In this document: positions 13,325 to 17,101 of the stretch, one piece after another
Numbering within the stretch: position 1 is the first letter of the stretch
Layout of the letters: each line of letters starts with the position of its first letter
Assembly: GCA_011090425.1 (NCBI GenBank)
Contig: PHGD01000054.1
Location: forward strand, 1-32,637
Length of the DNA stretch: 32,637 nt
Reading direction: 5' to 3'
Origin: Nitrospira sp. LK70
Lineage (GTDB): Bacteria; Nitrospirota; Nitrospiria; Nitrospirales; Nitrospiraceae
The notes under the pieces: model-generated
Databases searched by the model: none
Seen by the model: the letters and a program-made list of their open reading frames with translations, nothing else
Told to the model about the DNA's origin: nothing
Program-made: the position numbers and the translations under genes

Positions 13325-15553
13325 TCAACGCCGATGATAGGGAACACAGAAGCGGTTGGAACAGTGGGCCACTTTCAGGTCGCCGTTCGTGGCGTCGTAG
13401 TAGCTGACCAAGGGTCGGCCATCCGTGCCGATGGCAATCGTCGTGAACTGGCCGACATCGTCCCAGCTCTGGACAGCCGTGTGGGTGACCGTTTCACAGC
13501 CAACATCGGCGCAGCGAGCGACTCGTAAGTCCCCGTTCGTCGCATCATAATAGCTGATCAACCCCCGTTCATCAGCACCAATGGTGATCGAAGAGAATCG
13601 ACCGATGTCGTCCTGGCTGTGAAGTGTGCCGACTCTGGACGAGCGACAGACAAGATCTGCGCAGTGGGCCAGTTTCAAGTCGCCGTTCGTCGCATCGTAG
13701 TAGCTGATTAAACCGAACCCGTCGGCCCCAATCACAACGGAGCCATACTGGCCGACATCGCCCCTACTATCCACCGTGCTTTCTGTCGCAGAACCACAAG
13801 CAACATCGACACAATGTGCTATTTTCAGATCCTGGTTGGTGACGTCATAGTAGCTGATGAGCGCCAGGCCATCGGCACCGATGGTGATCGAGGTAAACTG
13901 ACCGACGTCGCTCTTGCCGGCCAAGGTGGTCATCGTGGCTGAGCTACAGACGAGATCATCACAATGGGCTACTTTGAGGTCGCCGTTCGTGGCGTCATAG
14001 TAGCTGATGAGACCTCGGCCATCAGTCCCGATCGTCACCGACGTAAATTGACCCACCTGACCAACCTGATCTAACGCAAAGGATGTAGAGGAGATGCAGG
14101 CCACATCCTCGCAATGCACCACTCGCAGATCCCTGTTCGTCGCATCGTAATAGCTGATGAGGGGAAGCCCATCTGCCCCGATCGTCACGGAACTGTATTG
14201 ACCAACATGGTCCTGGCTCTGAACGGTCGTCAGCGTGGCAGAGGCGCAGGTCAGGTCACCGCAGTGAACCACCCTGAGGTCGCCGTTTGTCGCATCGTAG
14301 TAGCTGATCAAGGCCTTTCCGTCGGCTCCCAGTACCATTGAAGAGGATGCGCCGACGTTAATAGCTGCTCCGTCCAACGGGGTCACGGTCGCCTCGGTGC
14401 AACCCACATCGCCGCAATGAGAAATCTTAAGATCGCCGTTGGTGACATCGTAGTAGCTGATCAACGGGAGGCCATCAGCCCCGATAGCAACGGATGTATA
14501 CTGGCCGACGTTGCCGGTCCTGTCCGGCGTGGCGAGGGTAGCGGAGGCACAGGCGACATCGCCGCAATGAGCCACCTTCAAATCCCCGTTCGTCACGTCG
14601 TAGTAACTGATGAGGCCCAGCCCATCGGCTCCGATCACGATGGACGTATACCGGCCAACATCGCCTTCGCTCTCAAGCACGGTGCGCGTCGGGGACATGC
14701 ACAGAACTTCCTCGCAATGGATGACTTTGAGATCGCCGTTCGTGGCATCGTAATAGCTGATGAGGGGGTGACTGTCCGTCCCGATCGTGACCGAGCTGTA
14801 TCGACCTACATCGCCGGTTTTGTCAGGAGTCGATGTGAGAGTCGGTTCCGTACAGGGCAAATCAGGGCAGAGGGCCGACTTCAAGTAGTGGTCCGACGCA
14901 TCGTAATAGCTGATGACGCCCTGGCCCATAGCGATAGCAACCGAGCTGTACTGACCGACGTCCCCCTCTGCCTGCAGAAACGTAAGAACCGTAATCGTCG
15001 CGGCCTCACAGGCCACATCGGCGCAATGCGCAACCTTCAGATCGCCGTTCGTGACATCGTAGTAGGTGATAAGGGGAAGCTTGTCGATGCCGATGGTGAG
15101 GGAACTGTATTGGCCCACATTCCCAGCATGGTCGAGCGTTGTGAGCCTGGCCGACGTACAGGCGATATCCACACAGTGCGCGACTTTCAGATCGCCGTTT
15201 GTCGCGCCGTAGTAACTGATGAGGCCTCGATCGTCGCTCCCAAGCGCAATAGAGGTGTACTGGCCGACATCCCCAGTACGGTCCAGCGAGCTGATCGTCG
15301 CCGAGGTGCACAGCTGGTTGGAGCAGTGGGCGACCTTCAGATCATGGTTCGTGGCGTCGTAGTAACTGATGAGGCCGAGACCGTCGGCCCCAATGGCGAC
15401 GGAGGTGTACTGACCGGCGTCGCCTGAGCCATCCCGGGTAATCACCGAGAATCCCGGGCGCTCCCGCGCTGTATCGTCCGCGCGGGAGCCCTGGCTCAGC
15501 TGGAGGCTGGACAGAAACGCAATGATGAAACCGAAAACGATCAGCCGCCTCAT
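13325..15553 (-). CDS. Secreted protein of 14 tandem 50-residue repeats (probable beta-propeller-like)
   Basis: A signal peptide (about 1-26, MRRLIVFGFIIAFLSSLQLS, cleavage near SRA) leads into 14 consecutive repeats of about 50 residues reaching to the C-terminus of the 742-residue protein. The consensus is VGQYTSVxIGxDGxxLISYYDATNGDLKVAHCxDxxC followed by a variable 10-15 residue linker ending in G-D or G-N. Every repeat keeps a C-x4-C pair, which could form a disulfide in the periplasm or outside the cell. The pattern of four short beta strands per unit suggests propeller blades, and 14 units could make two seven-bladed propellers; both are inferences. The repeats are also visible at DNA level as a 150-bp period. 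It lies 129 bp downstream of the TIR-FGE gene. Function unknown. Confidence 0.88.
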   Translation of the reverse strand: MRRLIVFGFIIAFLSSLQLSQGSRADDTARERPGFSVITRDGSGDAGQYTSVAIGADGLGLISYYDATNHDLKVAHCSNQLCTSATISSLDRTGDVGQYTSIALGSDDRGLISYYGATNGDLKVAHCVDIACTSARLTTLDHAGNVGQYSSLTIGIDKLPLITYYDVTNGDLKVAHCADVACEAATITVLTFLQAEGDVGQYSSVAIAMGQGVISYYDASDHYLKSALCPDLPCTEPTLTSTPDKTGDVGRYSSVTIGTDSHPLISYYDATNGDLKVIHCEEVLCMSPTRTVLESEGDVGRYTSIVIGADGLGLISYYDVTNGDLKVAHCGDVACASATLATPDRTGNVGQYTSVAIGADGLPLISYYDVTNGDLKISHCGDVGCTEATVTPLDGAAINVGASSSMVLGADGKALISYYDATNGDLRVVHCGDLTCASATLTTVQSQDHVGQYSSVTIGADGLPLISYYDATNRDLRVVHCEDVACISSTSFALDQVGQVGQFTSVTIGTDGRGLISYYDATNGDLKVAHCDDLVCSSATMTTLAGKSDVGQFTSITIGADGLALISYYDVTNQDLKIAHCVDVACGSATESTVDSRGDVGQYGSVVIGADGFGLISYYDATNGDLKLAHCADLVCRSSRVGTLHSQDDIGRFSSITIGADERGLISYYDATNGDLRVARCADVGCETVTHTAVQSWDDVGQFTTIAIGTDGRPLVSYYDATNGDLKVAHCSNRFCVPYHRR
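13355..15430 (-). repeat. 150-bp tandem coding repeat array (about 14 units)
   Basis: The segment coding for ISYYDATNGDLKVAHC recurs every roughly 150 bp with high nucleotide similarity; on the plus strand the text CGTAGTAGCTGAT or a close variant reappears in almost every unit. Units differ mainly in the linker and at the surface positions. Lengths deviate slightly in the units near 14350 and 14985. Such arrays can expand or contract by recombination. Confidence 0.85.
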
Positions 15554-15682
15554 CTATTTCTTGCCTGGTTGGACCTTCATGGGACACCCATCGCCCCTAG
15601 TGTGAATGACCTTAAACCCAAGAGACAAGGGGCAGAAGAATCGAATCGGAGGGAAAAGGGTAAAAGAACAAAGGGCAAAGGG

Positions 15683-16888
15683 TTAGGGAATGTCCTGGAT
15701 GAGACGAAACCCCAGGGCGTCGCTCCGGTTGCCGGTCGCGTTCCAGCTCCGGTACGAGACACGAAGGTAGTCCGGAGAGTTGTTCCAGGAACCGCCACGG
15801 ATCACGCGCTGGCCTTGGTCATTGTCATACCAACTTGAGCACCATTCCCAGACATTACCAGCCATGTCATAGCAGCCGTAGGGGCTGACTCCGTTGGGAT
15901 ACTGTTTGACCGGAGTCGTACGATCAATGCCGGAATCCTGACTGTTACATCTATCCTTGTCGAAGTTCTCTCCCCAGGGGTACTGTCGCCCGTCTTCGCC
16001 CCGCGCCGCTTTTTCCCACTCTTGCTCGGTGGGGAGGCGCTTGCCGGCCCACTTGGCGTAGGCTTCTGCCTCGTAGCAACTCACACCAACCACGGGATGA
16101 TCGGCCTTGTTCCAGAGTGTGTCATCCCAATATTTCAGGCACGTGACAGATTCTGCGGTCCTCCACTTCCACCCTTCAGATGACCAGTAAGCCTTGTTTT
16201 CGTAGCCTCCTGCTTCGATGAACGCGCGATACTTCTCGTTGGTCATGGGATACTTGTCAATCCAATAGTCATGGTCGATTGTCTCTCGAGTTTTTTCATC
16301 GCCGTACAGGAACGGCCCTTTGGGCACTTTCACCATGTCCACTGGCGTGGCAGGAGTGGATGGCTTGGTCTTCTTTTGAACAGGCTTGGCGTGGGTATCC
16401 GGTTTCGGCTGAGCCTCGCTGAGGCCACGAATCTGTTGCGTCAGGTAAGCAATCAACCGATTCATATCGTTGTGAAAATCGGGGCCAGATCGTACCGCAA
16501 GGCCGTGCCGGTACGGTAACTTCTGAATGCTTTTCGGAAGCTGCTTGGCCGGTGGGATCGAGGCTCCTCTTACCAGGACGGGAATCACAGGAATCTGACG
16601 TTTTAGCGCCGACTCGATTTCAATCCGCACAAAATCTCTCGGGTCTTCAAGTCTGGTCTTGCCCTGGCTGTCCCTTGCCCCCATCCAATCCGGTCCGATC
16701 ACGGCGAGGAACACATCGCACTTGGCCACCTGCTCATCCAGATGTTTGCGAAAGTCCACGCCAAAGGGGATGGAATCCACGTCGACAAAAACGGCCTGGC
16801 GTCCAAACTGCCGGACCAGCCGGTCATCGATACGACCGGTGACATCGGCGCTATCTTCACGTCGATACGAAATCAGAATCTTGCTCAT
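15683..16888 (-). CDS. TIR domain fused to FGE-sulfatase (SUMF1/C-type-lectin-fold) domain
   Basis: The protein has 401 residues. Residues 1-155 are a TIR_2-type domain: ILISYRREDSADVTGRI, a VFVDVDSIPFGVDFRKHL segment and CDVFLAVIGPDW. A proline/lysine-rich linker (about 158-183) leads to an FGE-sulfatase domain (about 184-401) with the typical KYPMTNEKYRAFIEAGG, GVSCYEAEAYAKWAGKRLPTEQEWEKAARG and YDMAGNVWEW segments and a final RGGSWNN...GFR. The catalytic cysteine pair of true formylglycine-generating enzymes is absent, so the domain probably binds rather than oxidises. Whether the TIR part is an active NADase is unclear; an obvious glutamate at the SARM1-equivalent site was not found. The start at 16888 precedes the TIR sequence directly; the longer open frame has no domain. 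The C-terminus resembles a retroelement-diversified region. Confidence 0.9.
   Translation of the reverse strand: MSKILISYRREDSADVTGRIDDRLVRQFGRQAVFVDVDSIPFGVDFRKHLDEQVAKCDVFLAVIGPDWMGARDSQGKTRLEDPRDFVRIEIESALKRQIPVIPVLVRGASIPPAKQLPKSIQKLPYRHGLAVRSGPDFHNDMNRLIAYLTQQIRGLSEAQPKPDTHAKPVQKKTKPSTPATPVDMVKVPKGPFLYGDEKTRETIDHDYWIDKYPMTNEKYRAFIEAGGYENKAYWSSEGWKWRTAESVTCLKYWDDTLWNKADHPVVGVSCYEAEAYAKWAGKRLPTEQEWEKAARGEDGRQYPWGENFDKDRCNSQDSGIDRTTPVKQYPNGVSPYGCYDMAGNVWEWCSSWYDNDQGQRVIRGGSWNNSPDYLRVSYRSWNATGNRSDALGFRLIQDIP
15710..15784 (-). other. Possible diversity-generating-retroelement variable region in the TIR-FGE gene
   Basis: Codons 369-393, between the invariant GGSW and GFR of the FGE fold, are strongly enriched in NNC codons: AAC, GAC, TAC, GTC, AGC, ACC, GGC and GCC occupy 14 positions. 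This is the set expected if AAC codons of a template are mutated at adenines. No template repeat or reverse transcriptase was seen in the window. GC-rich codon usage alone could produce part of the pattern. Confidence 0.4.
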
Positions 16889-17101
16889 GGGTCCCACAAT
16901 GGGAGGACTGAGCCTCACACAACCGTTCGTGGTTCGACTGGGCTCACCACGAACGGATTTCCATGTCTTCGCGCCAGATTCTACGCATTTTCTCGATGAA
17001 GGCAAAGGGGGAATCTGGCTCTCGAATTCAGGAGACTTCCACATCCTTGACGGAGCTATGTAGTAGGTTGGTAGGTGCGAGGTCAGATCCTGGCGAGCGC
17101 C

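Follow-up and report, generated by a model that had tools for sequence, protein, structure and literature searches.

The diversity-generating retroelement (DGR) of the Bordetella phage BPP-1 (mtd/avd/TR/brt) transfers sequence from a template repeat to a variable repeat (VR) with adenine-specific changes, and this VR lies at the 3' end of a gene for a C-type-lectin-fold protein. Targets fused to TIR domains and targets remote from the retroelement are both already known kinds. TIR-like domains have been reported on variable proteins of cyanobacteria (PMC7517822), and the excerpted text of a study of Thiohalocapsa PB-PSB1 (PMC10907252) describes DGR-diversified sensors of the formylglycine-generating enzyme (FGE) or C-type lectin (CLec) type that are fused to, or lie near, TIR, CHAT, and STAND domains. 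Here, we describe TIR-FGE, a protein encoded on contig PHGD01000054.1 of the draft genome of Nitrospira sp. LK70 (assembly GCA_011090425.1), a stretch of 32,637 nucleotides that we refer to as the window. We consider it very probable that the C-terminal 40 residues of TIR-FGE are a DGR VR written in trans from a template on another contig, and we propose a sensor–effector role for the protein. Throughout, G000 denotes the genome of the window and G002 one of the same genus, C numbers are contigs of the window's genome, and L numbers are loci.

Searched with the 3' end of the TIR-FGE gene, the genome yields a 120-bp match of 88% identity at C155:1398-1517. This repeat aligns without gaps over all 120 positions to the VR, which forms the 3'-terminal 120 bp of this C-type-lectin-fold gene. 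Every one of the 14 mismatches is at a template adenine, and none of the 87 non-A template bases differ (hypergeometric p = 1.2e-9), placing the 95% upper bound of non-A divergence at about 3.4% by the rule of three. The lack of non-A differences indicates that the last rewriting of the VR was recent. Translated in the frame of the VR, the template reads GQHVIRGGSWNNKPDNLRVSNRNRNTTDNRNNNLGFRLIQ, and such asparagine richness is of the kind expected of a DGR template. Opposite the template-A codons, 16 of 21 codons are NNC, compared with 115 of 358 (32%) over the remainder of the gene. With a true template repeat present on another contig, this excess goes far beyond chance. The variable residues of the protein are 371, 374, 379, 381, 382, 384, 386, and 389-391. 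A bias toward NNC codons arising by chance, or from the GC content at third codon positions (GC3), is ruled out by a template repeat whose mismatches are restricted to adenines. Since the template is on another contig, TIR-FGE is a remote target, diversified in trans.

Directly upstream of the template, and overlapping its first bases, is a DGR-type reverse transcriptase (RT) gene (C155:556-1407) that carries the motifs GIPIGNLTSQ and YVDD. Among five other RVT_1 matches in the genome, considered as a possible source of the RT activity, those with readable frames resemble group II intron RTs. The same genus also retains an intact cassette, in G002, consisting of an FGE target, a bAvd-like gene (PF22296), an RT, and a template that differs from the adjacent VR at 23 adenines and nowhere else. 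The best PDB sequence match of this intact RT is 8ub7 (E = 1e-53), which we take to be the BPP-1 DGR RT. Over the ≈184 bp downstream of the template, C155 and G002 are 83% identical. As to the genus, locus L221 of genome G350, assigned to the same genus as the window, matches L183, deposited as Nitrospira sp. JZ-3_Bin7, with 100% identity over 3030 bp. At a strict cut-off, DGR RT matches occur in eight of 59 genomes, comprising the window's own and its relatives, and avd and RT are found together in G002 and G023.

Comparison between species points in the same direction. Across six orthologues, amino acid identity is 26% at the template-A codons and 74% elsewhere in the FGE domain (permutation p < 5e-5), and the VR codons other than template-A codons keep 79 to 89% identity. 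Low identity confined to template-A codons is the signature of a DGR as it shows between species. The initial annotation, made from the window by itself, had suspected a DGR variable region at this C terminus and had suggested looking for a near-identical repeat with mismatches only at template adenines, for a DGR-type RT, and for divergence between relatives. The template/VR pair, the adjoining RT, and the hypervariability of template-A codons bear out each of these expectations.

The full open reading frame (ORF) spans 15683-17044 on the minus strand and would encode 453 amino acids, or 401 if the ATG at 16888 is taken, a start common to orthologues of the same genus. Both parts of the proposed TIR fusion to an FGE-sulfatase fold were recovered by Pfam, and the earlier count of 14 NNC codons in residues 369-391 is exact according to the codon table. 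The FGE domain, previously described as lacking catalytic cysteines, indeed has no cysteine in its C-terminal GGSW...GFR segment, so that the active-site pair of formylglycine-generating enzyme is missing there. This domain matches TvpA (2y3c) with E = 9e-10, and a Foldseek search returned FGE/EgtB structures. Structure prediction gave a model with a mean predicted local distance difference test score of 86.7 and a predicted template modelling score of 0.58. In the TIR domain, Glu90 (16619-16621) aligns with the glutamate of the SARM1 motif DWVHKE, the known catalytic residue, although the similarity is weak (E = 0.004), as is that to ThsB of PADLOC (9e-7).

In the mechanism that we propose, error-prone reverse transcription would copy the C155 template into the VR in trans, and the C-type-lectin-fold surface of the FGE domain would bind a ligand through the diversified residues. 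The TIR domain, with its catalytic glutamate position kept, could then act as an NAD-consuming or signaling effector, making TIR-FGE a single-chain diversified sensor–effector, most likely for conflict with phages or competitors. Ligand binding, effector activity, and a defense role are predictions.

Several observations weigh against this interpretation. The assembly lacks a complete DGR-type RT: homology of C155 to intact cassettes starts only at 557, so ≈98 N-terminal codons of the template-adjoining RT are missing, and a search of the genome for this part, run without a positive control, did not find it. A GIY-YIG gene lies upstream of the truncated RT. Likewise, the genome yielded avd fragments but no complete copy of the gene. 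The draft comprises 201 contigs with 3.6% contamination, and since the VR and its template lie on separate contigs, they could stem from different strains. Finally, no recognizable defense system was found among the neighboring genes scanned by Pfam. The local DGR machinery looks dead in this assembly, and because the RT is 5'-truncated and avd is present only as fragments, we interpret the VR as one that was rewritten recently but is now probably frozen, an assembly error being the main alternative. The earlier suggestion that the protein might be a relic of a diversified receptor is accordingly supported as well. Other decayed DGR cassettes occur in the same genome, where truncated avd remnants lie behind VR genes at L019:6825-7050, L021:170-289, and L021:3590-3775.

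Might the DGR instead still be fully active, the C155 truncation being an assembly artifact or a second, decayed copy and the intact RT and avd simply missing from the draft? Ongoing homing would give the absence of non-A differences that we observe, repetitive cassettes do break assemblies such as this one, and G002 and G023 retain both genes. Yet the genome is estimated to be 99.98% complete, searches of it recovered neither the RT N terminus nor a complete avd, and the avd fragments adjoining VR-like targets on C48 (twice) and C170 fit real decay, so we regard continued activity as unlikely, although a serious contender. A further possibility is that TIR-FGE is an ordinary FGE paralogue with a fast-evolving C-terminal loop and no retroelement involved, its NNC bias reflecting GC3. 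The gene does have fairly high GC3, and the genome contains 29 FGE matches, but the adenine-only template/VR pair next to a DGR-type RT already refutes this idea, the NNC enrichment at template-A codons speaks against it too, and we give it virtually no credence. Different in kind is the proposal that TIR-FGE serves as a signaling or self/kin-recognition receptor instead of a defense sensor. Cyanobacterial DGR targets have been proposed to tune signal transduction (PMC7517822), and the neighboring genes that were scanned include no recognizable defense system; against this, sister targets in the genome have TIR-nSTAND1-FGE and STAND-FGE architectures, which the excerpted text of PMC10907252 proposes as antigen sensors. 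A receptor of this sort therefore seems to us a minority possibility, and we retain the diversified sensor–effector as the preferred reading.

Table 1. Features of the TIR-FGE gene and of related targets in the same genome
Feature	Position	Strand	Basis or remark
TIR-FGE protein, 401 amino acids	15683..16888	minus	ORF call, Pfam, orthologue starts; same-frame ORF extends further upstream
TIR domain, residues 4-127	16508..16879	minus	Pfam TIR_2, 6.5e-12
FGE-sulfatase / C-type-lectin-fold domain	15698..16342	minus	Pfam FGE-sulfatase, 2.7e-59
Variable repeat, residues 359-398 of 401	15695..15814	minus	Compared with the template repeat on C155
Pyrimidine-rich tract CCCTTTGCCCTTTGTTCTTTTACCCTTT	15655..15682	minus	Directly after stop codon; candidate DGR target-site element
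TIR-FGE with VR-like end	C104		Pfam
TIR-TIR-FGE with VR-like end	C170		Pfam
TIR-nSTAND1-FGE with VR-like end	C24		Pfam
STAND-like or fragmentary FGE genes with VR-like ends	C48 (twice), C90, C169		By reading sequence

TIR-FGE is not the only candidate target in this genome, in which at least seven further FGE genes, three of them with TIR domains, have VR-like ends. Most of their VRs are nearer to the G002 template than to that of C155. A genome-wide scan for an A-rich template pattern matched C155 only, revealing no second template repeat, and the templates of the other VR-like genes must therefore have been lost or left unassembled. On C87 (L031), an FGE gene has a VR-like end of the GFRC class followed by a diverged tract; it is possibly the target of a second DGR class (compare the G018 template in L062). 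The minus strand of the window at 13325-15553 encodes a 742-amino acid protein with a signal-peptide-like start and about 15 repeats of ≈45 residues (ISYYDATNGDLKVAHC), for which no convincing Pfam family was found.

Nearly all VR genes of this kind that we examined in the genus share a conserved pyrimidine-rich tract, near CCCTTTGCCCTTTGTTCTTTTACCCTTTGC, directly after the stop codon. With three mismatches allowed, the tract pattern has seven matches in the window's genome, one in the window and the others on C24, C48, C90, C104, C169, and C170; all seven follow VR-type FGE genes, and the control gave none. In 396 genomes of the phylum, the pattern matched 61 times, compared with a single control match. 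We inspected 30 matches: 27 come after an intact VR-type end, a further two (L207 and L226) after VR ends that are frameshifted or cut by the contig end, and one is unexplained. When 506 kb of other loci were searched with a tract model built from the genus, 10 matches reached E ≤ 1 and the reversed control gave none. Eight of them are no more than 12 bp away from an FGE stop codon; the other two, in L121 and L115, follow FGE matches at distances of about 6 and 31 bp. A related, more loosely conserved tract is thereby seen in other phyla, including loci from Acidobacteria (L169) and Deltaproteobacteria (L115) that each contain a DGR RT. An exact-match scan of viral contigs gave no hits.

Inverted repeats or a hairpin downstream of the VR are a common though not universal feature of DGR targets, and one account states that they are nearly always present (PMC3240598). 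After the TIR-FGE VR and most related VRs, we found no perfect stem of at least 6 bp with a loop of 3 to 6 nt within 130 nt of the GFR codons, and at most sites within the genus the tract stands where this usual hairpin is missing. Tract and hairpin occur together in Acidobacteria, Armatimonadetes, and Brocadia loci. The Acidobacteriia locus L169, a contig of a metagenome-assembled genome, combines a DGR RT and a template with three FGE genes of the VR type; a tract follows each VR, and in at least two cases there is also a strong 11-bp GC hairpin.

On the basis of its position and conservation, the tract may mark the target site or assist its recognition. We tentatively go further and suggest, aware that this may well prove wrong, that the tract (polypurine in its complement) is a class mark of DGR targets in Nitrospira and several phyla. 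In Nitrospira it would replace the cruciform hairpin. As a portable element for recognition, it would allow a single retroelement to reach numerous scattered TIR and STAND sensor genes and rewrite them in trans, and in many genomes a frozen repertoire would persist after loss of the RT. One such genome could be G012, a nearly complete Nitrospira genome that has nine tract sites (including loci L069, L103, L110, L112, and L113) and in which no DGR-type RT passed the strict cut-off, which makes a frozen repertoire of DGR products possible there. Alternatively, the tract could be a 3' untranslated remnant that the genes share through duplication, with no function in targeting, since FGE 3' ends are common by descent and the role of the tract is that of a candidate. 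A comparison of 22 sites within the genus speaks against such a remnant: for paralogue pairs that are only 46% identical over 210 bp ahead of the VR, identity is 70% in the tract and drops to 38% in the 60 bp beyond it. Nor does it sit well with the related tracts after FGE genes in other phyla, at two loci with a DGR RT, or with the absence of the tract behind the template repeats of G000 and G002, and we consider it improbable.

Although the general categories are familiar, the Nitrospira target family, its orphan repertoire, and a tract in place of a hairpin appear to be undescribed as far as the open-access literature shows; our search of open-access full text for a prior description of the tract found none. 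TIR-FGE would represent a minimal, one-protein hypermutated immune-type receptor, a diversified surface plus a TIR effector, in a nitrifier genus; the template, the target, and the decayed machinery can all be identified. Remote targets were, by its own statement, beyond the detection of a large metagenome survey (PMC8144416), and the conserved 3' tract could reveal such targets without their template. It also opens target-site recognition in chromosomal DGRs to direct tests. In addition, the persistence of target genes in genomes without a detected RT raises the question of whether DGR products are kept as a frozen repertoire.

Among the known proteins, TvpA of Treponema denticola shares the FGE-type C-type-lectin fold and is reportedly a DGR variable protein with the VR at its C terminus, but it has no TIR domain and belongs to a different lineage. 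Thoeris ThsB and other TIR effectors resemble TIR-FGE in the weak TIR similarity and the retained catalytic glutamate position; in the Nitrospira protein, however, a diversified FGE domain is joined directly to the TIR, and no ThsA neighbor was identified. With the BPP-1 DGR, the system has in common the adenine-specific transfer, the RT family, a bAvd-type accessory (here in relatives), and the location of the VR. Unlike in BPP-1, the Nitrospira target is chromosomal, remote, and TIR-fused, the RT of the window's genome is truncated, and the GRNA-loop hairpin that BPP-1 requires (PMC3240598) was not found after the VR, where a pyrimidine tract stands instead. Known DGRs with remote VR genes likewise have variable CLec proteins with N-terminal TIR-like domains; their targets were accepted at >50% template identity, whereas the Nitrospira VR is exact at all non-A sites. 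The Thiohalocapsa PB-PSB1 DGRs, in the excerpted account, differ in that the DGR 2 target combines CHAT and TIR, compared with the minimal TIR-FGE described here, and in that those excerpts mention no conserved 3' tract. As in Nitrospira, that account includes degenerate cassettes and a trans action inferred from a perfect non-A match. A diversified surface coupled to a TIR effector would fit the antigen-sensor proposals made for Thiohalocapsa and for the vWA ternary systems (PMC7159879).
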